A stretch of DNA of 64,000 nucleotides, taken from NCBI RefSeq assembly GCF_020667895.1, contig NZ_JAFMPS010000002.1, forward strand, positions 139,131 through 203,130. Reading direction: 5' to 3'. Positions 993 through 22,877 of this stretch are shown piece after piece. Made by a program: the position numbers and the translations under genes. The stretch's first letter is position 1. Each line of letters starts with the position of its first letter. This stretch comes from Alcanivorax sp. 1008. Its GTDB lineage: Bacteria; Pseudomonadota; Gammaproteobacteria; Pseudomonadales; Alcanivoracaceae. The notes under the pieces were generated by a model, which saw only the letters and a program-made list of their open reading frames with translations, was not told the origin of the DNA and searched no databases.

Positions 993-2888
993 ATGATCCA
1001 GCTTGAAAGCCTGCGCCTGCGACGCGGCCCCGATATTCTTCTCGACCACGCCAGCATGACCCTGCACGGTGGTTGGAAAATCGGCCTGACCGGTCGCAAT
1101 GGTTGCGGTAAAAGCTCCCTGTTCGCCCTGCTCAGCGGCCATCTTGAAGCGGACGCTGGCAGCCTGTCCGTGCCCGCAGACTGGCGCATGGCGATCATGG
1201 CTCAGGAAGTCCCGGCGCTGGACCAGCCCGCCATCGACTATGTGCTGGATGGCAACACACCGCTGCGCGCCGCGGAACAGGCCCTGCGTGATGCGGAAGC
1301 CAGTGCTGACGGCATGGCCATTGGTCATGCCCATGAAAAACTCGATGCCCTTAATGCCTGGTCACTACCCGCCCGCGCCGCTGAAGTGCTGGCCGGTCTG
1401 GGTTTTGCCGCTGACGCGCAAAACAATCCGGTGGCCAGCTTCTCCGGTGGCTGGCGCATGCGCCTTAATCTGGCCCGGGTGCTGCTGGCGGATGCCGACC
1501 TGCTGCTGCTCGACGAACCCACCAACCACCTGGATCTGGATGCGGTGCTGTGGCTGCAGGACTGGCTGCAACAGGCACCGCAAACCCTGCTGCTGATTTC
1601 CCACGACCGGGATTTTCTCGACGCCACCATCAGCCATATTCTGCATATCGAACAGCAGCGCCTGACCCTGTACAGCGGCAACTATTCCGCCTTCGAACGG
1701 CAGCGGGCCGAGCGCATGGCCCAGCAAACCCATGTGTACGAAAAACAAAAAGCCCAGGCCGCTCACCTGCAAAAATTTATCGACCGCTTTCGCGCCCAGG
1801 CCACCAAAGCCCGGCAAGCACAAAGCCGTCTGAAGGCACTGGCGAAACTGGAATTAATTGCCCCCGCCCATGCGGAAGACGGTTTCAGTTTCAGCTTCCC
1901 CAAACCGCTCAAACTGCCCAACCCCATGCTCGATCTGGTCAAGGTGCAGTGCGGTTATGGCGACACGGCCATCCTTCATGATGTGACCTTTTCTATCCGC
2001 CCGGAAAGCCGCCTTGGTCTGCTCGGCCCCAACGGCGCGGGCAAATCCACCCTGATCAAAACTCTGGCCACCCAGCTGCCCGCCCTGAGCGGCAAGTTCA
2101 CCGTTGGCCCGGAACTGGTGATCGGTTATTTCCATCAGCAACAGGTGGACGCCCTGCCCCAGGACAAAACTGCCTTTGCCCTGATGCAACTGGCCCAGCC
2201 GAAATGGGAAGAGCTACAGGTACGCAAAGAGCTGGGCCGATTTGGTTTCCACGGCGACGACGCCTTTGCCGAAGTGAAACGTTTTTCCGGCGGCGAAAAA
2301 TCACGCCTTGCGCTGGCCCTGCTGGTGCAACAAAAGCCAGCACTGCTATTGCTTGATGAGCCGGCCAACCACCTTGATCTGGATATGCGCGAAGCGCTGA
2401 CCATGGCGCTGCAGGAATTTGAAGGCGCGGTGATACTGGTTTCCCACGACCGGCACCTGCTGGAAACCACCGTCGACGAACTGGTGCTGGTGGCCAACGG
2501 CACAGTAACGAAATGGGAGGGTGATCTGGATGACTACGCCCGCTGGCTGCGTGAACGCAACAAGCAAACCAGCAGCGTCAGCGACAGCCCCGCCGGCACC
2601 AGTGACAACAAACTCAAGCGCCAGCAGGCGGCCCAGAAACGGGCCAACCTGCGGCCACTGAAACAGGCCGCCGACAAGCTGGAAAAGCAGCTGGAGAAAC
2701 TGCAGCAGCAGCTCGCTGAAGTAGAAACCAAATTAGGTGATGAAGCGCTCTATCAGGCGGATCAGAAAGCCACCTTAAATGACCTGCTGGCCCGTCAGGG
2801 CACCCTGCGCAAGCAATGTGAAAGCGTGGAAGGCGACTGGCTGGAAGCCATGACCGCACTGGAAGAGGCCGAGCAAGCGGAAGACTAG
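993..2888 (+). CDS. yheS: ABC-F family ATPase, YheS-like
   Basis: A 631-residue protein with two ABC ATPase domains in one chain and no membrane segments, the ABC-F layout of ribosome-associated translation factors. Domain 1 has Walker A GRNGCGKSS (about residue 34), signature FSGGWRMRLNLAR and Walker B LLLLDEPTNHLD. Domain 2 has GPNGAGKST (about 346), RFSGGEKSRLALA and LLLLDEPANHLD. A basic linker separates them, and a C-terminal coiled coil rich in K, Q and E spans about residues 540–631. The length and N-terminus (MIQLESLRLRRG) fit YheS rather than Uup or EttA. It starts 55 bases after the EAL gene. The exact ribosomal role of YheS is not well known. Confidence 0.92.
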   Translation: MIQLESLRLRRGPDILLDHASMTLHGGWKIGLTGRNGCGKSSLFALLSGHLEADAGSLSVPADWRMAIMAQEVPALDQPAIDYVLDGNTPLRAAEQALRDAEASADGMAIGHAHEKLDALNAWSLPARAAEVLAGLGFAADAQNNPVASFSGGWRMRLNLARVLLADADLLLLDEPTNHLDLDAVLWLQDWLQQAPQTLLLISHDRDFLDATISHILHIEQQRLTLYSGNYSAFERQRAERMAQQTHVYEKQKAQAAHLQKFIDRFRAQATKARQAQSRLKALAKLELIAPAHAEDGFSFSFPKPLKLPNPMLDLVKVQCGYGDTAILHDVTFSIRPESRLGLLGPNGAGKSTLIKTLATQLPALSGKFTVGPELVIGYFHQQQVDALPQDKTAFALMQLAQPKWEELQVRKELGRFGFHGDDAFAEVKRFSGGEKSRLALALLVQQKPALLLLDEPANHLDLDMREALTMALQEFEGAVILVSHDRHLLETTVDELVLVANGTVTKWEGDLDDYARWLRERNKQTSSVSDSPAGTSDNKLKRQQAAQKRANLRPLKQAADKLEKQLEKLQQQLAEVETKLGDEALYQADQKATLNDLLARQGTLRKQCESVEGDWLEAMTALEEAEQAED

Positions 2889-2988
2889 AGGAAAACTGAT
2901 AGCGCCGATCAGGGATTGACCAGACCCACAGCTGGCAGGACACTCCTATCACCAGCGTCACCCAAAATAATAAACCGGGAGAGCCATA

Positions 2989-3300
2989 ATGAAGCCAGTT
3001 GCCCTTGTTACCACCATTACCACCTTCGCTGCCGCCCTTACCTTGCTGCCCGCCAGCGCCCTGGCACTGGATATGAGCCAGCAGCAGTTCATTGATTACT
3101 CCGCAGAGCAGCACTGCCTGAACCAGAAGCTGTGGGACCAACCGGCACAGCTGGAAGCAGAGCTGATCAAGCTGGAGGAAAAGTACGGCATCAGTGAAGA
3201 CGACCTTGATGCGCTGGATGAGCTAACCGCCAAGTACAACGCCGACGCCACTATTCAGCCGCAGATTGAAGAAAAAGCACTGGCGCTTTGTCCTAGATAG
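2989..3300 (+). CDS. small exported protein of unknown function
   Basis: A 103-residue protein with a clear Sec signal peptide: basic start MKP, a hydrophobic core, and a likely signal peptidase I site after ASALA near residue 26. The mature part of about 77 residues is acidic and helical-looking, with one cysteine near its start (EQHCLNQK) and one near its end (LCPR), which could form a disulfide in the periplasm. A GGGAGAG-like ribosome binding site lies just before the ATG. I do not recognise the family. It stands alone between the ABC-F gene and the convergent DUF502 gene. Confidence 0.75.
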   Translation: MKPVALVTTITTFAAALTLLPASALALDMSQQQFIDYSAEQHCLNQKLWDQPAQLEAELIKLEEKYGISEDDLDALDELTAKYNADATIQPQIEEKALALCPR

Positions 3301-3331
3301 AAAGGCCCTGGATAATAGGCAGAAGCCCATC

Positions 3332-3964
3332 CTAACGGGGCAGCTGGCCGATCAGTGCAGAAGTACCCGCGCCGCAGGCAATCACACTCTTCATCATCTG
3401 CTCCACCCGGATCTCCGGGTGGAACTCCACCAGATCCGTACTGACGTGATAGATAAAACCGGTGGTCGGATTCGGCCCAGTGGGCACGAATACGCTCACC
3501 CGGCCATCCTCATGGCGCGACGTCACCAGACCCAGCACGGACACCTCCACCTGACGGCCATACAGCCACACTCTGGCCACTTCACCGCGCTTGAATGGCG
3601 AGTCATTACTATTGCCCAATAACTGCGCCGTGATTTCACGCACACTGCGATAGCCGGGCACGCGCACCATCAGCACTTCTTCCGCACGCAGCCACAACCA
3701 GGCACCAAGACGGGTTGCCACCAAAGTGCCAATCAAAAAACACAACAGAATCAGCAGCGCTATCACGATCAAATCCGCCAGCACTTTGGGCAAACCAAAG
3801 GTGGCAATAACCGGGCCGGTAAAGGGTGAGATCAGCCCGCTGGCCGCATCATATATCCAGCTAAAAATAGTGCCGACAATCACCATGGGCAGCAGGATCA
3901 GCAAGCCGCCCGCCAGCGAGCGGCGAACGATCATGGAAAAACGACTTTCAGGAACTTCAGTCAT
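3332..3964 (-). CDS. DUF502 family membrane protein
   Basis: A 210-residue protein with two predicted membrane segments near residues 14–36 and 57–80, then a soluble domain with the DUF502 hallmarks: a VPGYRSVREITAQL stretch near the membrane and the conserved FVPTGPNPTTGFI segment. Family members are conserved bacterial membrane proteins without a firm biochemical role. Its start is 8 bases downstream of the greB stop, on the same strand, so the two are probably co-transcribed. Confidence 0.88.
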   Translation of the reverse strand: MTEVPESRFSMIVRRSLAGGLLILLPMVIVGTIFSWIYDAASGLISPFTGPVIATFGLPKVLADLIVIALLILLCFLIGTLVATRLGAWLWLRAEEVLMVRVPGYRSVREITAQLLGNSNDSPFKRGEVARVWLYGRQVEVSVLGLVTSRHEDGRVSVFVPTGPNPTTGFIYHVSTDLVEFHPEIRVEQMMKSVIACGAGTSALIGQLPR

Positions 3965-3972
3965 AGTGGAGC

Positions 3973-4476
3973 CTAATCCTGCTGGTAACGAATGCCGCTA
4001 ATGTACCAGAGCTTGGCACCGGAAGGCGTATCAACTTCAGCCTCATCATCCACCTGTTTTTTTAACAGCGCGCGGGCTAATGGTGAATCGATACTGATAT
4101 AGCCAAGCTTGCCATCAGTTTCATCCGGGCCCACCAGACGGAAGGTGGACTGCACGCCGTCTTCGTCCTCCAGCGTTACCCAGGCACCGAAAAACACCCG
4201 GCTTTGATCCGCAGGTGGGCGGTCCACCACATTCATGTCGTCCAGACGCTTGCTCAGAAAACGAATACGGCTATCAATCTCGCGTAGCATCTTTTTGCCA
4301 TATATGTACTCCGCATTTTCCGAACGGTCGCCCTGGGCAGCGGCCTCCTGCACGGAACGGGTCACCTCCGGGCGTTTCACCTTCCACAGGTGCTGCAACT
4401 CTTCATTCATCGCCCGATAGCCTTGCGGGGTGATGTATTTGGAAGCCGGTGTGCTGGGAGGTCGCCAACGGGACAT
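3973..4476 (-). CDS. greB: transcription elongation factor GreB
   Basis: A 167-residue GreA/GreB family protein. These factors enter the RNA polymerase secondary channel and stimulate cleavage of backtracked RNA. The N-terminal coiled coil carries the acidic tip and basic patch typical of GreB (QGDRSENAEYIYGKK, about residues 49–63). The C-terminal FKBP-like domain follows from about residue 90 (FFGAWVTLEDEDG, ISIDSPLARALL). The full family length is present. It is divergent from the SDR gene at 4551, with about 75 bases between the two start codons for both promoters. Confidence 0.95.
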   Translation of the reverse strand: MSRWRPPSTPASKYITPQGYRAMNEELQHLWKVKRPEVTRSVQEAAAQGDRSENAEYIYGKKMLREIDSRIRFLSKRLDDMNVVDRPPADQSRVFFGAWVTLEDEDGVQSTFRLVGPDETDGKLGYISIDSPLARALLKKQVDDEAEVDTPSGAKLWYISGIRYQQD

Positions 4477-5306: not shown

Positions 5307-6307
5307 TTCCGCCGCCACTTTGCCGGAGATAGGTCAAACCATTGCCGGAATGCGCGATTGAAAGAACTCTGCTCGGCAAAGCCGAGCAGCATGGTTATTT
5401 CCACTAGCGACAACGACACGTCAGTCAGATAGGTCTGCGCCAGCTCCTGCCGAGTGCGATCGAGCAACCCCTGAAAAGACTGTCCTTCCTCCCTCAGTCG
5501 GCGCTGCAAGGTTCGCGTCGACATAGCCATTTCATCTGCCACATCTGCCAGCGCCGCTCGAGCAGCCGGCAATAGTCGCAATATCACTTGCTGCACCTGA
5601 AGCGCAAAAAATTGACCGCCAGGCAGCGCACTACTCAATGCCAATGACTGCCGATCAAGCAACGCCCTTAAGGACGGGTTTGCTGTCTGCAGCGGAATAT
5701 CCAGATAGGCCGCAGGGAAACGCACTCTCACATAAGGTGCTGCGAATATCACCCGGCAACCAAAAAATGCCTCATAAACCTGCGGCTGGGCCGGTGCCGG
5801 ACTCGAGAATGCCACCTCCACCGGCCCTGGTGCGCTGGGTGCCAACTGACGCATATAGCTAACCAGCGCGGAAATAGCGGTTTCGTCTGTTAGTAGCCCC
5901 GGACTGTTGCGGCCGGCTAGTGGCCAGCCAAGCTCAGCGGTACTTCCGCGAATGCTGATGCGCGCCATCTGGATGCCGTAAAACAATGCCTCAAAGCGCT
6001 GGTAAGCATGGAGCGCCTGACCAACGTTATCGCTGGCAGCTACCAGATAGCCCAGCACACCAACTCGCTCGGTACTGATACAGGCGCCAATTTCCAAGCC
6101 ACGCCCGTCACCGGGATGGACCGCTTCGGCCCGCTGCAGCAGCTCTCGCCACTGTGCCAGAGGCACTGGATCGCCGGGCCCATAGCGCTGCACCGCAGCC
6201 CGAAGGGACGGTGCGCTCAGTTGATAGCGATCCAGCCAGTCGATAAGGACTCGAACGTAGGAGCCATTAACGCGAATGGCAGAGGGCATGGAAGAGTAAG
6301 GCGACAT
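5267..6307 (-). CDS. AraC family regulator with arabinose-binding-type N-domain
   Basis: A 346-residue regulator. The N-terminal about 200 residues match the 'Arabinose_bd' ligand domain common in lipid and alkane degraders (VGVLGYLVAASDNVGQAL, AVIFAAP-like segment). The C-terminal AraC DNA-binding domain has two helix-turn-helix units (ADEMAMSTRTLQRRLREEG, then ITMLLGFAEQSSFNRAFRQW). It is divergent from the hydroxylase gene at 6396 and convergent with the SDR gene. The hydroxylase and perhaps the SDR are the best candidates for its targets; this is inferred from position only. Confidence 0.93.
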   Translation of the reverse strand: MSPYSSMPSAIRVNGSYVRVLIDWLDRYQLSAPSLRAAVQRYGPGDPVPLAQWRELLQRAEAVHPGDGRGLEIGACISTERVGVLGYLVAASDNVGQALHAYQRFEALFYGIQMARISIRGSTAELGWPLAGRNSPGLLTDETAISALVSYMRQLAPSAPGPVEVAFSSPAPAQPQVYEAFFGCRVIFAAPYVRVRFPAAYLDIPLQTANPSLRALLDRQSLALSSALPGGQFFALQVQQVILRLLPAARAALADVADEMAMSTRTLQRRLREEGQSFQGLLDRTRQELAQTYLTDVSLSLVEITMLLGFAEQSSFNRAFRQWFDLSPAKWRRNQRATMPPSTASA

Positions 6308-6395: not shown

Positions 6396-7328
6396 ATGGA
6401 CCCAATCGAATTTGCTATTGCCGCCTATCAAGCCGCCGACCCTAAACAACTGATTCTGGTCGCCATGCTGCCGTTATTTTCCCTCACCGTCGTGCTGGAG
6501 GCCTGGCGATTCCGGCACACAGACATCTACAGCCTGAAGGACTCCGCTGCCAGCATGGCACTCGGGGTTGGCTATGTGTTGCTGGAAGTGGTGGTCAACG
6601 CATTATTTGTCTTTACGGTTCTGAATTGGGTTTATCAGTATCGGCTGATGACCATTGAGATCACGCCGCTTACATTTATCGGGCTGTACCTGCTGATTGA
6701 CCTGCTGTTCTACGGCTACCATGTGGTGGCGCACAAAGTACGCTGGTTCTGGGCCACCCATGTGGTTCACCACGCATCCGAACACATGAACTTCACCACC
6801 GCCGGGCGGCAGAGCATCCTCTACGCCTTCAGCGGTCTGTTCATGTTTTTTACGCCGGCCATCCTGCTCGGCTTCGACCCGGTCTGGACCATGTTTGCGC
6901 TGGCCTTGAATCTATCCTACCAGTGGTTCATTCACACCCAGTGGGTCTACAAGCTTCCGCGACCCATTGAGTTTATTTTCAACACACCATCGCATCACCG
7001 TGTTCACCACGGACGCAACCCGGAATATATCGACCGCAATTTTGCCGGCACGCTAATTATCTGGGACCGACTGTTCGGCACTTTTGTTGAAGAGCGTGAA
7101 GATCTGCCGCCGGAATATGGCATCACCCGGCCGATTCATAGCTACAACCCGGTGACCCTGACTTTGCATGAATTTATCGCCATGTTCCGCGACGTGGGCA
7201 GACCAGGGACCTTGTGGCTACGACTGAAACACCTATGGGCAGGCCCGGAGTGGCAGCGGCCGGAAACAGACACGCAGGACGCCGTGGCCAGCCAAGCCGG
7301 TCAACCGCAGCAACGTCTTACACCATAG
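6396..7328 (+). CDS. sterol desaturase / fatty acid hydroxylase superfamily membrane enzyme
   Basis: A 310-residue integral membrane di-iron enzyme. The histidine clusters of the superfamily are present: HVVAHK, HVVHHASEHMNF and SHHRVHHGRN, plus hydrophobic stretches for about four membrane spans. Members hydroxylate or desaturate lipids, sterols or ether lipids using O2; the substrate here is unknown. A strong ribosome binding site (CAGGAGG) precedes the ATG. It is divergent from the AraC regulator and overlaps the end of the convergent DUF2236 gene by 11 bases. Confidence 0.92.
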   Translation: MDPIEFAIAAYQAADPKQLILVAMLPLFSLTVVLEAWRFRHTDIYSLKDSAASMALGVGYVLLEVVVNALFVFTVLNWVYQYRLMTIEITPLTFIGLYLLIDLLFYGYHVVAHKVRWFWATHVVHHASEHMNFTTAGRQSILYAFSGLFMFFTPAILLGFDPVWTMFALALNLSYQWFIHTQWVYKLPRPIEFIFNTPSHHRVHHGRNPEYIDRNFAGTLIIWDRLFGTFVEEREDLPPEYGITRPIHSYNPVTLTLHEFIAMFRDVGRPGTLWLRLKHLWAGPEWQRPETDTQDAVASQAGQPQQRLTP

Positions 7329-8193
7329 ATTTGCTGTTGCGCAGGCGCTGACGGAAATCCCGCATCAGCAATAGTGTTGGCGCCTGTCGCACCACGCGGG
7401 GAACAAACCGGTTAACACGGAACACCAGCGACAGCACCCGCTGAAAACGCCGCTGCTGCGCATCGCTCCACTGCAGGTGCATCTGCTCGCGCATCTCTGC
7501 GGGCAGAAAGCCCGCGGTGACAAAGCGGTTAAAGCGACCAAATATCAGTTTTATGGGAGCGGGCATAAAGTTCAGATCAGCAATATCCAGCAGCACCCCG
7601 CGAATATAATCATCGATCTGCAGGTTCTTCAGATTTTCCTGCCAATAGGCATCGAACTCGTCCAGCGTCGCCGGCCACATATCCGCACGCACCTGCAAGG
7701 TGGTACCCAGCGGCTCAGCCAGCCTGTACAGCTCCTGCGCCTGCTCACGGCTCAGTTTGCCATGCATCTTTTCCAGCAAATCCGCATAGCCCCAGTACAA
7801 ACAGGCGGCCACCCATAACTGCAGCTGCGGATCAAAGGCGTTGTACTTCACCGGCGAGTCGTCCGTGGAGCGCACCTGGGCGTGGGAGCGATTGACCGCC
7901 ATGCGATAGGCCTGCTTCTCCTCGTCATTACCCAGCATGGCCACCGCCAGATAGGTCAGCGTGGTGCGCGTGCGTTTGAAGGGATGATGGAAAACGGAGC
8001 CACTGGTCACCCGGCTTTCCGCTACGCCGTAGCCCACCGGTGGCAGAGCCAGCTGCATGATGATGTTGGCGCCCGCCGCCACCAAACCCACCGCATCCAG
8101 AATCCCCGGGAATCGCTTATCCCACTCGCGAGCGGTAAGCGGCGCGGGCCACTGGGTTTGTAGCGACGAAACGGGAGCATTCATGGACAGCAC
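7318..8193 (-). CDS. DUF2236 (MpaB/rubber oxygenase-like) oxygenase
   Basis: A 291-residue protein of the DUF2236 family, which includes fungal MpaB and the haem-dependent latex-clearing protein Lcp. Family segments seen are FHHPFKRTRTTLTYL, a conserved RMAVNRSHAQVRS and DPQLQLWVAACLYWGY. Such proteins are thought to be oxygenases acting on terpenoid or lipid chains; the substrate here is unknown. No signal peptide is obvious. A 7-bp palindrome with arms 21 bp apart lies just upstream (8202–8229) and may be its operator. Confidence 0.85.
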   Translation of the reverse strand: MLSMNAPVSSLQTQWPAPLTAREWDKRFPGILDAVGLVAAGANIIMQLALPPVGYGVAESRVTSGSVFHHPFKRTRTTLTYLAVAMLGNDEEKQAYRMAVNRSHAQVRSTDDSPVKYNAFDPQLQLWVAACLYWGYADLLEKMHGKLSREQAQELYRLAEPLGTTLQVRADMWPATLDEFDAYWQENLKNLQIDDYIRGVLLDIADLNFMPAPIKLIFGRFNRFVTAGFLPAEMREQMHLQWSDAQQRRFQRVLSLVFRVNRFVPRVVRQAPTLLLMRDFRQRLRNSKSMV

Positions 8194-8201
8194 CTGACTG
8201 A

Positions 8202-8229
8202 GTGATACAAATTAAAGAAAACGTATCAC
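8202..8229. promoter_or_regulatory. operator-like inverted repeat upstream of the DUF2236 gene
   Basis: Perfect 7-bp arms GTGATAC (8202–8208) and GTATCAC (8223–8229), separated by an A-rich 14-base spacer. The centre-to-centre distance is 21 bp, two helical turns, as expected for a dimeric repressor. It lies 9–36 bases before the DUF2236 start codon, a place where it would overlap the promoter. The regulator is not identified. Confidence 0.4.
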
Positions 8230-8279
8230 CCGCTCTTTGGCGGCACAATGCCACGAAATGCAGATAAATATTTACCAGG

Positions 8280-9347
8280 CTAACCCGGCGTCAGCTCTGA
8301 CAGCTGCTGCGCCAACTCTCGCACCAGCTCGGCGGCAGCCACCTTGCGGCAGCCAGTCACATTCTGCCCGGCCCACAATGGCGAGAAATCACTACTGCCC
8401 TGCTGCTCCGCCGCCTTGCGCAGCGCCGTAATCGCCGTGCCCGCCAAAGGAAACTGGGGCACCCGCCGACTCATGGGCCCCTGCTCGCGCATCAGCCGGT
8501 TAACGATGCCACGGGCGGGACGGCCACTGAAAAGATTAGTCAGCGCCGTGACCTGCGCCGCAGGTTCCTGCAAGGCAGCCTGATGCAGCGCCGAAATGCG
8601 CGACTCATCGCACAACAAAAACGCGGTGCCCAGTTGCGCCGCCACCGCGCCTAACTGCAACGCCGCCGCAATGCCTGCCCCATCAGCAATGCCACCAGCG
8701 GCCACCACCGGCAACTGCACCGCGCGGACTATCTGTGGCAGCAAGGCAAAAGTGCCCACCTGCGTATTGATATCATCATCCAGAAACATGCCCCGGTGGC
8801 CGCCCGCTTCCACACCCTGAGCGATGATCACGTCGGCGCCATTGGCCTCCAGCCAACGGGCCTCCTCCACCGTAGTCGCCGACGCCATCACCAGCGCGCC
8901 CCAACCATTAACCCGGTCAAGCAGCTCCGCCTCCGGCAAACCGAAATGAAAACTCACCACCGGCGGCTGGAACGGCTCCACCAGATCCGCCACATCATGA
9001 TTGAACGGCTGACGCTGCGGCCCCTGCGGAATCTGCAAAGGATCAATATTGAACTCACGGAAATAGGCCGCCAGTGAGGCCCGCCACGCCACCTCTTTCT
9101 GGTCGTCCACCGTGGGCGGTGTGTGGCAGAAGAAATTCAGGTTATAGGGTTTGCTGGTGCGCGCGGTCAGCCAGGCCAGCTGCTTCTGCAACACCTCCGC
9201 CGACAACATGGCACAGGGCAAACCACCCAGACCGCCCGCCTCGGACACCGCCAGCGTTAACGCCGCGTCCTGGGCACCGGCCATGGGGGACTGCAGGATG
9301 GGCAGGTCGATGGCGAACAGTTCGCGGGCAGTAATACGGGTTTTCAC
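8280..9347 (-). CDS. nitronate monooxygenase family flavoenzyme
   Basis: A 355-residue FMN enzyme of the NMO (2-nitropropane dioxygenase) family with a TIM-barrel pattern: LPILQSPMAGAQD at the start, GVEAGGHRGMF, the FMN-phosphate region AAGGIADGAGIAAAL and GTAFLLCDES. Family members oxidise nitronates or act as related flavin oxidoreductases. The start is GTG at 9347, with AAGGAGC a few bases upstream. The start codon and ribosome binding site lie inside a 44-bp direct repeat whose other copy lies at the end of the MAPEG gene (15824–15867), so this gene probably once followed MAPEG directly. Confidence 0.9.
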   Translation of the reverse strand: MKTRITARELFAIDLPILQSPMAGAQDAALTLAVSEAGGLGGLPCAMLSAEVLQKQLAWLTARTSKPYNLNFFCHTPPTVDDQKEVAWRASLAAYFREFNIDPLQIPQGPQRQPFNHDVADLVEPFQPPVVSFHFGLPEAELLDRVNGWGALVMASATTVEEARWLEANGADVIIAQGVEAGGHRGMFLDDDINTQVGTFALLPQIVRAVQLPVVAAGGIADGAGIAAALQLGAVAAQLGTAFLLCDESRISALHQAALQEPAAQVTALTNLFSGRPARGIVNRLMREQGPMSRRVPQFPLAGTAITALRKAAEQQGSSDFSPLWAGQNVTGCRKVAAAELVRELAQQLSELTPG

Positions 9348-9367
9348 AGTCAGCTCCTTACAGCATC
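9324..9367. repeat. 44-bp direct repeat, left copy
   Basis: Matches 15824–15867 at 40 of 44 positions, same orientation, including 21 identical bases in a row at its right end (9347–9367). This copy holds the first eight codons of the nitronate monooxygenase gene, its ribosome binding site, and upstream of that ATG CTG TAA on the minus strand. ATG CTG TAA are also the last two codons and stop of MAPEG in the right copy. Confidence 0.9.
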
Positions 9368-9389
9368 AAACTGGCGAACTATCCTGACG

Positions 9390-10040
9390 TTAAGCCTGCT
9401 GTTCGAGGAACTCAATCATGCGCAGAAACATGGCGCTGGCAAAACGCGCCTGCCGGGCAACGACATCATCGCTGATCGGATGCTGGCGCATCAGCACCAC
9501 CATTGCAGACTCCAGCCAACCTACCAGCGTTTCCACTTCCAGCGGCATCACATCCCGCAAGCCCAAGCGTGACGCTTCGCGCGTCATGATCTGGTAAACC
9601 GCCTCAAGGGTTGCCTGCCGATAACGCCAGGCCGGTGAAGTGCTATCAAAACCTTCCCTATAGATCGCACGAGCCAGAGGCCCCATGGCTACGGCCCAGT
9701 CGAAGTAAGCTTGTACACCAGCATTGACCCGCGTTGGCGTGTCGGAGGTGGTGCCAAGGACGGACAGGATGCGCGCCATTAAATCCTCGTTGGCGCTGGC
9801 CACCAACATCTCTACCGCCTGCTCCAGGCCACCGGGGAACCAGCGATAAAAGGTCGGTCGCGATGTTCCAGCCGCCAGAATCACCTGCTCCACGGACAGC
9901 TCGTTGGCCGGTACTTCACCGAGCAGGTCGGCCACCGCGCGCAGCACCGTTTCCTGCTTGCGCGCCAACGCCTCGCCCGTCACCGGTGGCCTTCCCCTGC
10001 GATTGGCCCCGCGCTGGCCCATGTTTTCCTTGTTCTCCAA
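9390..10040 (-). CDS. TetR family transcriptional regulator
   Basis: A 216-residue TetR-type repressor. After a basic N-terminal tail (RRGRPPVTGEALARKQ) comes the helix-turn-helix: VLRAVADLL, then LSVEQVILAAGTSRPTFYRWFPG with the typical TFYRWF recognition helix. The C-terminal ligand domain is unlike any I can name. The start is either TTG at 10040 (preceded by AAGGAGG) or ATG at 10022 (preceded by AAGGA). It is divergent from the gene at 10127, and a perfect palindrome lies between them, so self-control and control of the GMC operon are likely. Confidence 0.9.
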   Translation of the reverse strand: MENKENMGQRGANRRGRPPVTGEALARKQETVLRAVADLLGEVPANELSVEQVILAAGTSRPTFYRWFPGGLEQAVEMLVASANEDLMARILSVLGTTSDTPTRVNAGVQAYFDWAVAMGPLARAIYREGFDSTSPAWRYRQATLEAVYQIMTREASRLGLRDVMPLEVETLVGWLESAMVVLMRQHPISDDVVARQARFASAMFLRMIEFLEQQA

Positions 10041-16604: not shown

Positions 16605-16626
16605 GTTATGTGCGGTAGAGGCGGCA

Positions 16627-16947
16627 ATGAGTCCTGAAAGGTTCGTGGCAGAGTTTAAAGAACTTAGGGAGTATATCCGTAATGGATACTTCTCCCCTGA
16701 TAGTGAAATCTCTCGCCTTCAACTGATGAGAGAAAGCGGTTTCAGCGAAGCCCAGATTGGCGTTGCTAATAAGATCGTCTCAGAGGCATTGACGGATGCT
16801 CTTTACACGGTTCTATTGGGAATAGATGGCTGCTCCGCTATTGGCAGCCACCAAGAGGCTTACAGGCTTGCTGGCGAAAACGGAGAGAGGCTTAGTGGCT
16901 TTCTAGAGACTCTAGCATGGGATCTGTTCCATGGTAAAAGCACATAA
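16627..16947 (+). CDS. cassette 1: small protein of unknown function
   Basis: A 106-residue soluble protein, mixed charge and mostly helical in appearance (EFKELREYIRNGYFSPDSEISRLQLMRESGFSEAQIG). I do not recognise it. It fills its cassette almost completely: the ATG is 21 bases after the cassette boundary, and the stop codon lies inside the attC core GCACATAAC, a common feature of integron cassettes. Expression probably depends on a promoter upstream of the array. Confidence 0.75.
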   Translation: MSPERFVAEFKELREYIRNGYFSPDSEISRLQLMRESGFSEAQIGVANKIVSEALTDALYTVLLGIDGCSAIGSHQEAYRLAGENGERLSGFLETLAWDLFHGKST

Positions 16948-17046
16948 CAATCAGCTGCACCGGATAAATTTCCGCTGTCACCTTTTGTGCATAGATCCGC
17001 ACAAAAGCCGCCATCGCAAATTTACCCGGTGAGCATAGCGTTATGC
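16940..17046 (+). repeat. attC site 1
   Basis: Outer cores GCACATAAC (16940–16948) and GTTATGC (17040–17046). Inside is a long near-palindrome: CACCGGATAAATTT pairs with AAATTTACCCGGTG (13/14) and CTTTTGTGC with GCACAAAAG (9/9), leaving a small loop. This is the folded hairpin architecture that integron integrases recognise. Length about 107 bases, in the range of chromosomal integron sites. Confidence 0.88.
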
Positions 17047-17064
17047 AATAGAAGGGGAAGGCGA

Positions 17065-17721
17065 ATGACAGGGGCTGAGATAACAGGACTGGTGGCATCA
17101 ATTGTCTCCTTAATTATAGGAGGCTTCGCGATATGGCTATCAGTCACTTTCTACAGAATGTCAAACAAGACATCCCAGGAGCTCGAAAAAGCTTCGTCTA
17201 ACATTAATTCTACTGTAGACCGATTAGAGGTCCTATTCGATAAGCTCTATTCAGATACGTTCAGTATGATGAAGGACACCGTCACAGATATGCGAAATCA
17301 TGTCTGGAGAACAACTGATGAAGATACAAGCCTCGAAAAGAGCGAACTTGAGAATAGTTTTGATGCATTGAAAAAAGAACTAAATGCAAGAATAGAAAAC
17401 TTGATCGCCGATCAAGGCTCAACAAGTGACCGGCTTGAAGGTTTTGCAGAACAAGTTGAATCACTAATAAGTGAAACTATAGATAGGTCTGCCAAGGAGC
17501 AGGTAGATCGGTCGTGGGATGAGAAAGAGAGGCAGGTTCTCGCTGCCATTACCGAACATGGCGAGTTAACCGAAGACGGGATCAGGAGAGCCACTGGAAT
17601 AAACGAAGGCGAGATCCCGCATATTGTCTTCACTCTTGGTAGAGAGAAGAAGTTGGAGTGGGAAGGCGGACCAACGATGTTTAGCTCGGAAACAAAGTTT
17701 CGCCTAGGAAAAGATGCATAA
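17065..17721 (+). CDS. cassette 2: membrane-anchored coiled-coil protein with C-terminal winged-helix-like region
   Basis: A 218-residue protein. One membrane span lies near the N-terminus (about residues 8–30, VASIVSLIIGGFAIWLSVTFY region), followed by a long charged coiled coil to about residue 150. The C-terminal end (EKERQVLAAITEHGELTEDGIRRATGINEGEIPHIVF) looks like a winged helix. The layout suggests an inner-membrane protein with a cytoplasmic rod. Function unknown. The start at 17065 is chosen for the AGGGGAAG upstream; the frame is open further upstream into attC 1. The stop TAA lies within the next attC core. Confidence 0.75.
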   Translation: MTGAEITGLVASIVSLIIGGFAIWLSVTFYRMSNKTSQELEKASSNINSTVDRLEVLFDKLYSDTFSMMKDTVTDMRNHVWRTTDEDTSLEKSELENSFDALKKELNARIENLIADQGSTSDRLEGFAEQVESLISETIDRSAKEQVDRSWDEKERQVLAAITEHGELTEDGIRRATGINEGEIPHIVFTLGREKKLEWEGGPTMFSSETKFRLGKDA

Positions 17722-17773
17722 CAAGGCCACGCACAGGGACGCCTAACGGCGCCCCTGTTGGCGGCGTTATAAC
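17715..17773 (+). repeat. attC site 2
   Basis: Cores TGCATAAC (17715–17722) and GTTATAAC (17766–17773), with the compact inner stem CAGGGaCGCC–TAAC–GGCGcCCCTG. At about 59 bases it is near the minimum size for attC. TGCATAAC is the exact complement of the start of cassette 2 at 17040. Confidence 0.88.
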
Positions 17774-17796
17774 TCTCAGAGAGAGAGTAATATTTC

Positions 17797-18273
17797 ATGA
17801 AATACTCAGATAAAAGTGAAGAAGACAAAGAAAAGCTTCATAGCTTTCTGGTTGCTCAGGCAGCAAACCAGTCAAGGAACGGGCGAGAAGTATTTGAGGG
17901 AACAAGCAAGGCTATATTGCTAGCAAACACAGGCGGTGTGGCTATTGCGGTTGGCTTGCTATCTTCAAGCGCGCCCATCTCATGCGTGATATATCTAAAA
18001 TTCGCAGCTATCGTATTTTCCGTGAGCGCCGCCCTATTTCTTGCCTTCAAGTTCTATCTTTGCGTGAAAATTGGCAACTCAGTGCAAGCCGTTAAAGAAT
18101 TTCATGTTAGTGCGATCGAGGACAAGGAAGATGTTTCTGATCGGTCTATTAGAGAGATGCTTGCATCTATATCTGAGGGGCTAGATGGTAAGGATCCGAT
18201 GCTTGCATTGGGCGTTTCCCTGCTTTTATTTTTAGTTGGTGTTGTGCTTGCTGCTATAGGAATTCTCAAATGA
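17797..18273 (+). CDS. cassette 3: membrane protein of unknown function
   Basis: A 158-residue protein with a polar N-terminal 40 residues (KYSDKSEEDKEKLHSFLVAQA), two closely spaced hydrophobic spans near residues 44–62 and 66–88, a charged cytoplasmic-type stretch, and a final span near residues 138–157. The shape is that of a small membrane effector or sensor, but no family is recognised. The ATG is 30 bases after the cassette boundary, with GAGAGAGAG upstream. Unlike its neighbours, its stop codon lies 15 bases before the attC core. Confidence 0.72.
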   Translation: MKYSDKSEEDKEKLHSFLVAQAANQSRNGREVFEGTSKAILLANTGGVAIAVGLLSSSAPISCVIYLKFAAIVFSVSAALFLAFKFYLCVKIGNSVQAVKEFHVSAIEDKEDVSDRSIREMLASISEGLDGKDPMLALGVSLLLFLVGVVLAAIGILK

Positions 18274-18287
18274 CAGCGGGTGCTTAT

Positions 18288-18366
18288 AGTTATAACAAGC
18301 AGCGCCGGTGCGGGCCTTTTGGGCGCCGGACGCACCTCGTGCGCCGCTGCGCAGGTCGTTCGATGC
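18288..18366 (+). repeat. attC site 3
   Basis: Cores AGTTATAAC (18288–18296) and GTTCGATGC (18358–18366). Inner pairs are GCAGCG with CGCTGC and GGTGCG with CGCACC. The right core departs from the GTTRRRY consensus, but the following cassette ends in its exact complement, GCATCGAAC, confirming the boundary. Confidence 0.83.
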
Positions 18367-18408
18367 TTACCAAGATAAAAGAGCCTGCACATAGGGAATT
18401 TCTGATAA

Positions 18409-20970
18409 ATGGCTAATATAATCGACAACTTGACTAAATGGCTTTCAGAGCGCCCCCAGTGGCTCCAGATTGCGGCTACTCGGCTACTTCAGCAGTCTGA
18501 GCTTGATGACAAGGACGTCTCTGAGCTCGCAAACCTTTGCCAGCAGGAAGCCGACGGCAAGCTGCCCAAAACGACCTGTTCCTTTCCTGCTACCGCGTTC
18601 TCCCAGGGCGCAGCAGGCTCCCTGCGTTTGTGTTCAATCAGTGAAATCGAAGGAGTAAACGCCCTTGCTCCGAAGAAGCCACTTGAGTTCGGTAAGGGCA
18701 ATATCACGATTGTTTATGGCAACAACGGGTCAGGCAAGTCCGGTTACGTCAGACTCCTCAAACATGTATGCGGAGCCCGCGAGACGGGCACCCTCCATCG
18801 CAATGTCTATAAGCCCGGCTCTGTCGCACAGAAAGCCTGCATTTCGTTTGAGCAGGACGGCGTACCGAAGACTCATACCTGGTCTGGTCAAGGTATCTGC
18901 GATGAGCTTAATAGCGTTGATATTTTCGACACCTCGTTTGGCAAGGTCTTTGTTAGCAGCGAAGACGAGGTGAGCTACGAGCCGCCGGCTCTATCGTTCT
19001 TCAGTTCACTCATCCTCGCATGTGAAAAGGTCGCATCGGCATTAGACAACGAGGCCAACCGGCACCATTCCAAAAAGCCAAATATTCCGGCTGACAAGAA
19101 GGTAACTCCAGAAGGCATCTGGTACGAAGCCATCAGTGCCAAGACCACCACCCAGGACATCGACAAGCATTGCGCATTTAGCAGTGCTGACGATACCGAG
19201 ATGCAAACGCTGCAGCAGCGCCTTGCCGAACAGGCACCGGCAGAAAAGGCGAGGCAGCTTAGAAAGCAGAAACAGCATATCGACACTCTGGTCCAGGATG
19301 CCCAAAAGTATCTGGAACAATTATCGGACGAGAATTACCGACGGATCATTGCAGCCAAGAAGAAGTCGATCCTCAAAAAGACGGCGGCAGATACGGCGGC
19401 GCAAAAGGTGTTCTCCGGCAGCGAGCTGGAAGGCATAGGCTCCGATGTCTGGAAAGAACTTTGGGAAGCGGCCCGGAACTATTCCGTATCGGCTGCCTAT
19501 AAAGAAGCCGAATATCCGAATGTTACTAATGGTTCCTATTGTGTCCTGTGTCACCAGACCTTGTCCCAGGAGGCCCAGGAGCGGTTGGCCTCCTTTGAGA
19601 ATTTCGTGAATGGCGAAATGCAGAAAGCCGCATCCGATGCGGCCAAGGAATACGAGACCGCCAGTCAAACTATCGAGGCGCTACCGACATCGGAGGCGCT
19701 GAAGACTCGTATCGATGCGGCTGGCATTCCACAAGATGAAGTCGCCAGCCAAGTTACGCATTTCTTTGCCCAATTGCAGGCCAGAAAAGACCTGCTTCCT
19801 GAGATCGATTCCGAAGAAGCCATTCCCGATCCGCTGCTCTCACCGAAATGGATTGAAGCAGCCAGCGCCCAGTCGAAAAGCCTAGATGAACTAGCGGAAA
19901 AATATGACGAAGATGCCAAAAGTGACAATCGGGAGGAGATCAAGAAGAAGCTAAACAACTTACAGGCCAGAAGGTGGTTGTCTGAGCACCGCGCCGCCAT
20001 TGATGAAGAAGTCGCCCGGTTGAAGCTACTGAACCAAATTCAGGAAGCCAAGAAGTCGACCAACACCAAAGCCCTGTCCCTGAAGAAAGGGGAGCTGGCA
20101 GAAGCCTTGATCACGGATGCGTTCGTGCAAAGATTCAACTCGGAGCTCAAGGCCCTTGGCGCGTCTCAGGTGAAGGTCGAGCTCGTGAAGTCAAAAGTCT
20201 CCAAGGGCCGCGTCCTTCATAAGCTCCAGCTTAGAGGGGCCTCTCAGAATGGGCTCGCCGATGTCCTGAGCGAGGGAGAAAATAGGATCGTTTCCATTGC
20301 GGCATTTTTGGCCGATGTCACCGGCAAGAGCAATCAGGCCCCGTTTATTTTTGACGATCCAATATCCTCGCTAGACCAAAGCTATGAGGAGGCTGTGGTT
20401 CAAAGGCTGATCGAGTTATCTCAGGATAAACAGATCATTGTCTTTACTCACCGCCTGTCCTTGCTGGGAACAGTCCGGCATTTTGCCGAGAAAAAGACCA
20501 TCAGGACCGATGTGGTGAGCATCCGCTCTGCGGACTGGGGGACCGGAGAGCCAGCCCCCATTCCACTTTCGCAGAGCGATATTAAATCCGCCCTGAACAC
20601 ACTCATGAATCAGCGGTATCAGGATGCAAAAAAGGCGAGTGAAAATGGCGAGTTTGAACATGCCGAAATCTTGATGAAGTCGATATGTAGCGACTTCAGG
20701 ACATTGGTGGAGCGCTCTATTGAAAATGATCTGCTGTGCGGGGTGGTTCAAAGATTCCAACGACCGGTCCATACGTTGAAACTCAAGGATCTGGCCAAAT
20801 TAAAGGGCACCGATTGCAATCGCCTTGATTCGCTCATGACTAAATACTCAGGGTTTGAACACTCGCAGCCAACAGAATCACCTGTGGAGCTGCCCAAGCC
20901 AGACGATCTTTTGGCTGACATGACTTCATTGAAAACCTGGCGTGAGGATTACGCAAAGCGCACCGCATGA
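18409..20970 (+). CDS. cassette 4: AAA ATPase with zinc hook, RloC/PrrC-like defence candidate
   Basis: An 853-residue SMC/Rad50-like ATPase. Walker A is GNNGSGKSG (about 104–112), the ABC signature is LSEGEN (about 620) and Walker B is FIFDDPISSLDQ (about 646–657). The long coiled-coil middle carries a CVLC pair (C378, C381), a zinc-hook motif as in Rad50 and RloC. The C-terminal region after the ATPase has R764, E768 (R-x3-E) and H818 in KYSGFEHSQP. PrrC and RloC anticodon nucleases use an R-x3-E…H triad, so a tRNA-cutting anti-phage role is plausible but inferred. At 2.7 kb this cassette is very large. It could alternatively be a DNA-end-processing ATPase. Confidence 0.8.
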   Translation: MANIIDNLTKWLSERPQWLQIAATRLLQQSELDDKDVSELANLCQQEADGKLPKTTCSFPATAFSQGAAGSLRLCSISEIEGVNALAPKKPLEFGKGNITIVYGNNGSGKSGYVRLLKHVCGARETGTLHRNVYKPGSVAQKACISFEQDGVPKTHTWSGQGICDELNSVDIFDTSFGKVFVSSEDEVSYEPPALSFFSSLILACEKVASALDNEANRHHSKKPNIPADKKVTPEGIWYEAISAKTTTQDIDKHCAFSSADDTEMQTLQQRLAEQAPAEKARQLRKQKQHIDTLVQDAQKYLEQLSDENYRRIIAAKKKSILKKTAADTAAQKVFSGSELEGIGSDVWKELWEAARNYSVSAAYKEAEYPNVTNGSYCVLCHQTLSQEAQERLASFENFVNGEMQKAASDAAKEYETASQTIEALPTSEALKTRIDAAGIPQDEVASQVTHFFAQLQARKDLLPEIDSEEAIPDPLLSPKWIEAASAQSKSLDELAEKYDEDAKSDNREEIKKKLNNLQARRWLSEHRAAIDEEVARLKLLNQIQEAKKSTNTKALSLKKGELAEALITDAFVQRFNSELKALGASQVKVELVKSKVSKGRVLHKLQLRGASQNGLADVLSEGENRIVSIAAFLADVTGKSNQAPFIFDDPISSLDQSYEEAVVQRLIELSQDKQIIVFTHRLSLLGTVRHFAEKKTIRTDVVSIRSADWGTGEPAPIPLSQSDIKSALNTLMNQRYQDAKKASENGEFEHAEILMKSICSDFRTLVERSIENDLLCGVVQRFQRPVHTLKLKDLAKLKGTDCNRLDSLMTKYSGFEHSQPTESPVELPKPDDLLADMTSLKTWREDYAKRTA

Positions 20971-20979
20971 ATTGGATGA

Positions 20980-21068
20980 GCATCGAACAATCAAATTCGC
21001 TCGGACTGAAAAAAGCGCCGCTCCTTCGTCGCTCCGCTTTTTACAGCGGGTGATGTGAGGCGTTATGT
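20980..21068 (+). repeat. attC site 4
   Basis: Cores GCATCGAAC (20980–20988) and GTTATGT (21062–21068). Inner stems are AAAAAAGCG with CGCTTTTT and a central GCTCC/GTCGC hairpin. GCATCGAAC is the exact complement of the start of cassette 4 at 18358, 2.6 kb away. Confidence 0.87.
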
Positions 21069-21106
21069 TTCCACGCAATCACAGACATCCCAATCTATGA
21101 GCCAGA

Positions 21107-21784
21107 ATGAAATACGCAATAGTTAACGGAGAAAGGGTAGAGGCAGAGCCTGGCCGCACGGGGGAATGCCCATGCTGTGGCTCAGAGATGGTATCTCGAT
21201 GTGGCGAAGTCAAAGTCAACCATTGGGCCCATAAAAGAAAAAGAGATTGTGACACTTATTGGGAAAATGAGACGGAGTGGCACAGAGAGTGGAAGGACTA
21301 TTTTCCGGAAGAATGGCAGGAAACCGTTCTAAAAGATGAAGACACCGGAGAGCGGCACATTGCCGATGTTCGAACTGGAGATGGCTTTGTAGTTGAGTTT
21401 CAGTATTCTCACATTAAGCCGGAAGAGCAAAGATCCAGAGAACGATTCTATAAAAGAATGGTATGGGTATTAAATGGATCAAGAAGGAAAACTGATTCTA
21501 AGAGGTTCACTAAAGGCTTCGAAGATTTCCGTCGAACCGATCAAAAGGGAATATTCATTGTACCTTTTCCTGACGAAGCCTTTCATAAAGCTTGGACAAA
21601 TTCATCTGTTCCAGTTTTTTTTGAATTTGAGGAGTGCATGGGCGCAGTTTGGGGGCTTCTGCCGGGGCGGAAAAATGGATATGCGATATCCTTATGTGTG
21701 TCAAAGAGTCAATTTGTTGAATTTGCAAGAAGCGGTAAATTATTTGAGAAGTTAAAAGAAATTAGTGGGAATTCTAAAACATAA
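21107..21784 (+). CDS. cassette 5: CoiA-like nuclease with zinc-finger N-terminus
   Basis: A 225-residue protein similar in layout to the competence protein CoiA family. The N-terminus has a zinc-ribbon-like CPCCGSEMVSRCG followed by HWAHK. Next comes WHREWKDYF, then HIADVRTGDGFVVEFQYSHI, which matches the PD-(D/E)XK nuclease core of CoiA-like proteins (D…ExQ). The C-terminal third is unassigned. It probably cuts or binds nucleic acid; a role in phage or plasmid defence is inferred only from its integron setting. Its stop TAA lies within the attC core AAACATAAC. Confidence 0.75.
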   Translation: MKYAIVNGERVEAEPGRTGECPCCGSEMVSRCGEVKVNHWAHKRKRDCDTYWENETEWHREWKDYFPEEWQETVLKDEDTGERHIADVRTGDGFVVEFQYSHIKPEEQRSRERFYKRMVWVLNGSRRKTDSKRFTKGFEDFRRTDQKGIFIVPFPDEAFHKAWTNSSVPVFFEFEECMGAVWGLLPGRKNGYAISLCVSKSQFVEFARSGKLFEKLKEISGNSKT

Positions 21785-21830
21785 CAAGACGCTGAAATTC
21801 TTGATCACGCTGAGGCGTGGAGTAATTATT
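21777..21830 (+). repeat. attC site 5, degenerate right end
   Basis: The left core AAACATAAC (21777–21785) is the exact complement of the start of cassette 5 at 21062. The body ACGC…GGCGT can pair, but no good GTT core follows; GTAATTATT at 21822 is the nearest candidate. This is the last site that can be recognised with any confidence. Confidence 0.6.
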
Positions 21831-22409: not shown

Positions 22410-22877
22410 ATGAATAGAACACAACAGGCACACAAGGAACCCGGCGTGAAATTGGAGACTCAGGTAACTGGAAATATCGGAATGTATTATGCTTGTTACA
22501 AGCTATCGTGCATGGGCTGGAATGTTATGCCAACAGCCAGAAATGCACGGGGCATTGACATAATTGCATACAACAAAAAAGGCACCGAGTTTATTGGGGT
22601 TCAAGTAAAATCACTTTCAAAGCGAAATCCAGTTCCGCTCGGAAACTCACTTGAAAAAATTATGGGTGACTTCTGGCTCATCGTAAACAATGTCGCAAAA
22701 GAGCCAAATGTTTTTGTTCTTTTACCCGAAGAGGTAAAGTCATTGGCTCATCGCGGAGAAAAAGAAGGGCGCGTATCTTACTGGCTGCAACCGACCTCTT
22801 ACGATCATCATCAATTCAAAGAGGCGTGGCATCGCATAGGACTTGGCCATGAAACCTGGGACTCCGGAAGCTCCTGA
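22410..22877 (+). CDS. PD-(D/E)XK-like protein of unknown function
   Basis: A 155-residue protein. The central part (ARNARGIDIIAYNKKG, then FIGVQVKSLSKRNP) reads like the core of small PD-(D/E)XK nuclease-fold proteins: a D in GIDII and a QVK in place of (D/E)XK. The glutamine replacement occurs in some active families, so activity is open. Two starts are possible: ATG at 22410, or GTG at 22446 with AAGGA eight bases upstream; the second gives a start just before the fold begins. It is the last gene of the AT-rich stretch after the integron, and no attC follows. Confidence 0.68.
   Translation: MNRTQQAHKEPGVKLETQVTGNIGMYYACYKLSCMGWNVMPTARNARGIDIIAYNKKGTEFIGVQVKSLSKRNPVPLGNSLEKIMGDFWLIVNNVAKEPNVFVLLPEEVKSLAHRGEKEGRVSYWLQPTSYDHHQFKEAWHRIGLGHETWDSGSS

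Follow-up and report, generated by a model that had tools for sequence, protein, structure and literature searches.

An integron cassette of Alcanivorax sp. 1008 carries a full-length relative of a BREX-operon gene, a candidate RloC-like effector

Can a long gene related to those of large phage-defence operons be packaged as a single integron cassette, and what would its product do there? The question is raised by a stretch of 64,000 nucleotides from Alcanivorax sp. 1008 (assembly GCF_020667895.1, contig NZ_JAFMPS010000002.1, positions 139,131 to 203,130 of the forward strand), which we call the window and whose numbering is used below. On its plus strand, an open reading frame (ORF) at 18409..20970 starts with ATG, has no internal stop and encodes a protein of 853 residues (P0001), an ATP-binding cassette (ABC) ATPase of the PDC-S06 family with a C-terminal motif of the RloC type. 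RloC is described as a zinc-hook anticodon nuclease, responsive to zinc and DNA, which excises the wobble nucleotide from tRNA (PMC2610378, PMC3874168). The gene is intact, lies in a real cassette and is under purifying selection; its product has invariant motifs and a predicted ATPase fold, and gene contexts were established for its relatives. The explanation that we regard as probable is that it encodes a stand-alone, DNA-gated HEPN-type RNase effector working like RloC, most likely a tRNase, carried at full length in a cassette.

The cassette occupies positions 18359..21062 (plus strand). It is complete, 2,704 bp long, contains this one gene and is the fourth of five recognisable cassettes, which bears out the 2.7-kb single-gene integron cassette described in a first-pass annotation of the window. 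Its ends are defined by mirrored cores: it begins with GTTCGATGCT at 18358, which read on the opposite strand gives AGCATCGAAC, the sequence that opens its attC site at 20979-20988. This match of 10 nt was reached in none of 500 shuffles of the flanks. The same rule holds in the neighbours; mirrored core pairs of 8-10 nt were found for each of the five consecutive ORFs between 16627 and 21784, and none for the two ORFs directly after the array. The attC of the cassette (20979..21062, plus strand) extends from the 5' core GCATCGAAC up to the G before the next cassette. In its circle form it folds around the core stem with a z-score of -4.06 (mononucleotide shuffles), and as the linear site it folds no better than expected (z -0.02, dinucleotide shuffles); the attC of the preceding cassette (18287..18358, plus strand), which also has mirrored cores, gave -4.07 and -0.49, respectively. 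As a control, all 131 window ORFs of at least 100 residues were searched, and six reached mirrored cores of at least 7 nt, four of these being cassette ORFs. The fifth cassette ORF is missing from the six because its longest ORF begins within the neighbouring attC. Since the other two, non-cassette ORFs reached 9 nt and 7 nt, a lone mirrored-core match can arise by chance. A genome-wide search with an attC consensus pattern proved useless, as its 10 and 11 matches were outnumbered by those of the control (46 and 42).

The array has no integrase of its own and so counts as a cassette cluster: the single integron integrase of the genome over the cut-off sits on another contig (C27). A tblastn search with 311 residues of this IntI found none in the window (E 1e-10), and the arrangement of a complete integron, with intI adjoining attI and the array, was not seen at the window array. 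In the 16 kb around the C27 gene (L222, G000:C27 126000-142000), none of 51 ORFs had mirrored cores of at least 8 nt.

What does the cassette encode? The PADLOC profile PDLC04893 (PDC-S06) matched residues 1-852 of the protein with 1111 bits (E 0), a full-length match that makes it a member of this family. PADLOC PDC systems are presented as phage-defence candidates of unconfirmed function (PMC11878078), and PDC-S06 is not one architecture, because the label also takes in an RloC-type protein encoded elsewhere in the host (PDLC04887). Pfam AAA_13 covers residues 93-694 (62.8 bits) and ends short of the C-terminus. Conservation was scored in an alignment of 34 rows, in which the window protein stands with 33 relatives of identities as low as about 23%; this alignment is distinct from the 34-row alignment A7 used to build an AlphaFold model (mean predicted local distance difference test, pLDDT, 84.2; predicted template modelling score 0.56). 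An earlier model from 19 rows was poor (pLDDT 61) and was used for no claim. Along the plus strand follow motifs that we take to be Walker A (GNNGSGKS, residues 104-111, 18718..18741; K110 in 33/33 rows with a letter there), the ABC signature (the sequence motif LSEGE, residues 620-624, 20266..20280), Walker B with the D-loop (FIFDDPISSLD, residues 646-656, 20344..20376; D649 and D650 in 34/34) and the switch histidine H681. Between the first two lies the zinc hook CVLC (C378 and C381, 19540..19551), kept in 33 of the 33 rows with a letter, one row having a gap; long helices flank it on either side in the model.

The modelled head has an ATPase fold of the SMC/Rad50 kind, with 5xns_A as its best VIA match (Z 22.2, root-mean-square deviation 6.2, 343 residues aligned), and 5da9_B gave Z 21.6, 4.7 and 317, respectively. 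For comparison with RloC we used an "RloC-type" set of 12 rows, the host copy and eleven relatives from viral contigs, in which R-x3-E and S-H form invariant columns, as does CxxC; the host copy, the sole row run against Pfam and PADLOC, is called AAA_13 and PDC-S06 there, not RloC. The ATPase head of the window protein is homologous to this set in a profile-profile comparison (99.6%, E 2.9e-24). In front of the head, residues 1-70 (18409..18618, plus strand) form an N-terminal helical extension (model helices 2-13, 17-29 and 34-48) which is absent from the RloC-type rows compared, as those begin near the ATPase. Sequence searches of the PDB gave mainly ABC- and SMC-type ATPases, none named RloC or PrrC among the best 60 of 76 and the best 60 of 127 matches, and all 16 matches of a search with the RloC-type profile were ATPases and coiled-coil proteins, again none of that name. 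By sequence and model, the protein is an ABC ATPase of the SMC/Rad50 type that carries a CxxC zinc hook and ends in a helical domain.

It is this last domain (residues 725-853, 20581..20967, plus strand) that we propose to be a HEPN-type RNase. The model places helices at 725-745, 749-775, 789-797, 800-814 and 831-850, with pLDDT of 68-91 in ten-residue blocks. R764-x3-E768 (20698..20712, plus strand) lies in the second of these helices, and H818 (20860..20862, plus strand) in the loop 815-830 between the last two long ones. All three residues are invariant in the 34 aligned sequences. Across the 159 columns of residues 695-853, just eight are kept in at least 33 of the 34 rows (G713, R764, E768, R769, R782, H818, P829 and R851), and the triad accounts for three of them. 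The spacing R-x3-E-x49-H falls within the RloC range R-X3-E-X36-52-H, for which the alanine mutant of each of the three residues is reported to be inactive (PMC2610378). The HEPN domain is described as a four-helix core with an acidic residue in helix 2 and a basic-x4-6-H motif ending helix 3 (PMC3710099). In our own reading of the model, the second helix holds E768, an insert with a short helix follows, and H818 comes right after the next long helix; [K/R]812-x5-H818, present in 33 of the 34 rows, resembles the HEPN motif Rx4-6H. The first-pass annotation had placed the CVLC hook and the R764-x3-E768 … H818 pattern exactly where we find them, the SMC-type ATPase motifs that it noted are present, and the conservation check upholds the triad.

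The relatives of the gene give a second line of evidence. A pattern-based scan of one genome each of 84,980 species yielded 25 loci, and a scan of viral contigs one more; these 26 are 62-92% identical over the best segment, with several incomplete copies among them. BrxL is encoded immediately upstream in eight of them (L011, L012, L013, L015, L016, L020, L032 and L043), and PADLOC profiles detected PglZ and BrxL in L011 and PglX in L012, genes of BREX (bacteriophage exclusion). SbcD and then SbcC of one clade come next in 11/26 loci (L011, L012, L013, L015, L024, L025, L027, L028, L029, L032 and L043); these calls were made by tblastn with L011 as the query for L024, L025, L027, L028 and L029, and by eye for the other five. 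A different metallophosphatase-ATPase pair is found in L022. HsdR stands beside the relative in three loci: L014 (HsdS before, HsdR after), L034 (HsdR after) and L024 (type I HsdR before). The prrC gene itself lies between hsdS and hsdR. In L026 the relative comes after a D12 methylase and an AlwI-type endonuclease. The relatives next to brxL, beside HsdR or in a methylase-helicase-SbcD-SbcC operon are 85-92% identical. To judge from these neighbourhoods, the gene would usually be an accessory of larger defence systems. The first-pass annotation had missed that PADLOC already lists this family as a candidate and that genes of BREX operons are the most frequent among the close relatives.

The host itself offers a close comparison. 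On contig C24 (L230, G000:C24 7569-19790), one strand carries in order a methylase-like gene, a gene of 170 codons, a BrxHI/HmaA-like SNF2 helicase, the RloC-type AAA_13 protein (PDLC04887, 1032 bits; PrrC model, 36 bits), SbcD and SbcC, and the profiles assigned no single PADLOC system to it. Locus L027 has the same gene order, with a relative of the window protein, after the SNF2 helicase and before SbcD-SbcC, in the place of the RloC-type protein. The host helicase is 54% identical to that of L027; for SbcD and SbcC of the host, identity to their counterparts in the BREX locus L011 is 72% and 61%. This is one exchange of an RloC-type for a window-type protein, not a statistic. The host genome has six places where HSDR_N scores above the cut-off, and the one BrxL model tried gave only a partial match (27.5 bits). 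In L095, a type I-like locus by eye, an RloC-type AAA_13 protein (G103:C1:39546-41795, 457.9 bits) and a relative of the window protein occur together (1748-4152 and 6980-9552).

The hosts of the relatives span Pseudomonadota, Thermodesulfobacteriota and Actinomycetota; several of these hosts are known only as metagenome bins and may be misassigned, but copies of 92% identity are carried by the isolates Desulfobulbus rhabdoformis and Vibrio zhanjiangensis. A sample of the class comprised 369 genomes; 35 of them, counting the host, gave at least one match at E 0.001, and in about one third of these it took in most of the protein. Among phage records there was no match at E 1e-5; plasmid records gave 264, all below 60% identity. 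Among the plasmids, one of Pseudomonas aeruginosa (L262, NZ_CP061074.2) has a 34%-identical relative that a single small gene separates from three preceding recombinase/integrase genes, and is another possible mobile carrier. An orphan copy in L021 follows a 36-residue brxL remnant (5868-5975), a trace of the decay of a BREX operon or of escape from it.

Taken with the motifs and the domain order, the gene contexts make it well supported that the protein would work like RloC. Several results weigh against this reading. Compared alone with the RloC-type set by hhalign, the C-terminal domain gave 0.3%, which is not significant (five other segments of the window protein gave 0.1-1.4%), and in an anchored, forced global alignment the two triads fail to line up. 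No RNase family was among the best 25 of 70 Pfam families for the 34 A7 members, and no PHROG above E 0.4 was found for the C-terminus. In each structure search the 50 best rows were heads of the ABC type, from SMC, Rad50, RecF and their relatives and in part without a name, and none was named HEPN or RloC; the ATPase head filled these rows, and residues 727-853 were not reached. H818 sits in a model block of pLDDT 69. SbcD as an obligate or dedicated partner had to be rejected, given that a relative or an RloC-type gene adjoins SbcD in only 2 of 30 loci of the class, one of them in the host (tblastn, E 1e-8, flanks of up to about 1.5 kb, shorter in a few cases). Finally, promoter-like sites are at chance (9 against 7.4 expected, standard deviation 2.8), and because of this and of its fourth place in an array with no neighbouring integrase, the gene may be silent in its host.

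Because of the 0.3% profile score and the unaligned triads, the likeness to RloC is one of motif, topology and architecture, not of detectable C-terminal homology. The RloC/PrrC resemblance claimed by the first-pass annotation stands for the motifs, hook, spacing, length and gene contexts, and is so far not supported for a match of the C-terminus to the RloC nuclease domain. This leaves some room, although clearly less than for a tRNase, for a HEPN-type RNase that is no anticodon nuclease and cuts mRNA, rRNA, another region of tRNA or phage RNA. The missing profile homology and the N-terminal extension peculiar to the subfamily would fit such an enzyme, and the targets of HEPN RNases are reported to be diverse (PMC3710099); against it stand the RloC-type triad and spacing, the one relative in the place of an RloC-type protein and the three beside HsdR. 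The alternatives weighed here are not mutually exclusive and in part coincide with the RloC-like explanation, so their likelihoods do not add up to one.

Could the gene instead be a silent passenger, a real cassette that is unexpressed and drifting in an abandoned array? The distant integrase, the lack of promoters above chance and a frameshifted cassette-like copy in Kineobactrum (L023, 6001-8563, split into two frames after about residue 93) suggest so. However, the ratio of nonsynonymous to synonymous substitution rates is 0.099-0.145 between the window gene and each of 14 relatives, including the cassette copies L017 and L031, so the protein is under purifying selection in the contexts compared, and all motifs are intact. 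We hold this alternative to be rather unlikely. Least likely of all is a DNA-repair or SMC-like accessory of defence loci with no RNase, whose C-terminal helices bind DNA or a partner and whose R764, E768 and H818 are structural: its Rad50/SMC-like head and the SbcD-SbcC pair in 11/26 loci are outweighed by the cassette copies without SbcDC (window, L017 and L031), by four plasmid copies with no SbcD or SbcC annotated beside them (their gene tables being incomplete), by the polar invariant R/E/H in RloC spacing and by the RloC-type protein in the same place of the C24 operon.

How often has the gene become a cassette? In a two-sided test of 22 loci, three reached mirrored cores of at least 9 nt, namely the window, L017 and L031, the latter two with 9 nt each and 1/500 shuffles each. 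L018 (6 nt, 71/500), L019 (4 nt, 431/500) and L023 (4 nt, 328/500) failed it and are cassette-like only by one-sided sequence resemblance, and there was no pair to try in L014, L016, L024 and L030. A partial copy in another genome of the genus (G002) is followed by a site that looks like attC by eye. Cassette copies are hardly shortened against the BREX copies, with 853 (window), 858 (L017) and 853 (L031) residues versus 858 in L011, L012, L013, L015 and L043. The window gene is closest to the Desulfobulbus BREX copy (91.9% of bases). The protein tree is star-like, and the DNA tree rejected both a single cassette clade (7 rows versus 14, approximately unbiased test, p 4.2e-7) and a clade of window, L017 and L018 (p 1.9e-5). 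By eye, the window, L017 and L018 have a common 3' flank, the hosts of the latter two being of two phyla, and L031, L023 and L019 a common 5' leader. Recombination or repeated capture could each explain this pattern of flanks and tree.

If the RloC-like explanation is right, two ABC heads, joined via the zinc-hook coiled coil, would sense an abnormal DNA state, such as DNA ends, phage DNA that is stalled or cut, or inhibition of a restriction system. The Rad50-type head and the hook would hold the C-terminal, metal-independent HEPN-type RNase in check until an ATP-driven rearrangement releases it with its active site R764/E768/H818. The released RNase would cut RNA, most likely tRNA, and translation would be turned off, leaving the phage unable to multiply. 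Such a check is reported for RloC, which responds to DNA breaks (PMC3874168). In BREX, type I restriction-modification (R-M) and methylase-helicase-SbcDC loci, the protein would presumably form a second line once the first fails; as a cassette, it would work by itself or support, in trans, systems that the host already has. We infer the RNase activity, the tRNA target, the trigger, the phage defence, the second-line role and expression in the host. A wider proposal, which we put forward tentatively, is that the protein is a plug-in second-line effector that kills translation, can replace RloC in these three unrelated kinds of DNA-based defence loci and has been packaged in cassettes more than once without shrinking, so that integron arrays might lend their hosts the abortive-infection arm of systems too large for cassettes.

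The other cassettes of the array, all on the plus strand, are as follows. Cassette 1 (16606..17040) has 9-nt mirrored cores and an attC with z -9.15, and its ORF (16627-16947) found no match in Pfam or PADLOC. Cassette 2 (17041..17766) has 8-nt mirrored cores and an attC with z -6.47; the product of its ORF (17065-17721) appears by eye to be a membrane-anchored coiled coil and has a TFIIE_alpha-like stretch just under the cut-off (E 1.5e-4). The ORF of cassette 3 (17767..18358), at 17797-18273, encodes a membrane-like protein by eye and is enclosed by 9-nt mirrored cores. Cassette 5 (21063..21785), also with 9-nt mirrored cores, can be placed at its end only to the 5' core, and its ORF (21107-21784) matches CoiA_N (34.8 bits versus a cut-off of 26.3). 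Just past the recognisable array, an ORF of 155 residues without mirrored cores (22410-22877) weakly resembles Mrr_cat (E 0.04-0.15). Scans of the window with Rfam and for tRNA gave no matches.

Parts of this picture are already known, namely the PDC-S06 candidate family, RloC (2008), RloC-family genes in Pgl operons (2013, PMC3710099) and integron defence genes (2025). We found no account of this gene in a cassette, or as part of type I BREX, in the titles and the starts of abstracts that we searched, which cover few subscription or primary integron papers, and the words RloC, SbcD and Mre11 are absent from the main text of a BREX survey, as far as it was accessible (PMC12839542). If the protein acts alone, the cassette is a one-gene, 2.7-kb test of the RloC idea, in which a sensor of DNA state controls an RNase, and illustrates how a large defence system can have its suicide arm travel by itself between phyla.

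Among known systems, RloC is the nearest. It is described as having ABC motifs in common with PrrC, a CX2C zinc hook in the coiled coil and a length of 658-897 residues, and as occurring alone or, rarely, at R-M loci (PMC2610378). Those features of RloC that can be read from sequence are found in the window protein: the ABC motifs in a head split by a coiled coil, the CX2C hook, R-x3-E-x49-H within the RloC spacing and a length of 853 residues. It differs in the N-terminal helical extension of about 70 residues, in the position of Walker A (about residue 105 versus about 41-48) and in a C-terminal domain too diverged for profile detection. With PrrC, an anticodon nuclease linked to a type I R-M enzyme that silences it, the window protein has the R-x3-E...H triad in common, and the relatives in L014, L024 and L034 adjoin HsdR; however, PrrC is given as 341-416 residues without the zinc-hook insert (PMC2610378), whereas the window protein is far outside this length and has the hook, and none of the neighbouring window proteins scanned with Pfam and PADLOC is an R-M subunit to which it might be linked. 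RloC-family HEPN proteins were reported in 2013 as embedded with Pgl core genes in a few operons (PMC3710099), whereas the relatives found here lie in type I BREX loci with BrxL, and in cassettes. A HEPN RNase has also been predicted in a cassette, as the small integron-cassette protein of the PDB 3jrt family (PMC3710099); the HEPN-type candidate of the window is fused to an ABC ATPase, which the 3jrt entry, in the part of that source available to us, is not listed to be. The defence genes of integrons have been reported to be small and streamlined, with BREX absent (Darracq 2025, Kieffer 2025, Getz 2025; PMC12409362, PMC12444791, as far as these sources were accessible). Like those, the gene of the window is a single-gene defence candidate in an attC array; unlike them, it is a full-length relative of a BREX-operon gene, found as a cassette with two-sided evidence in three hosts (window, L017 and L031).

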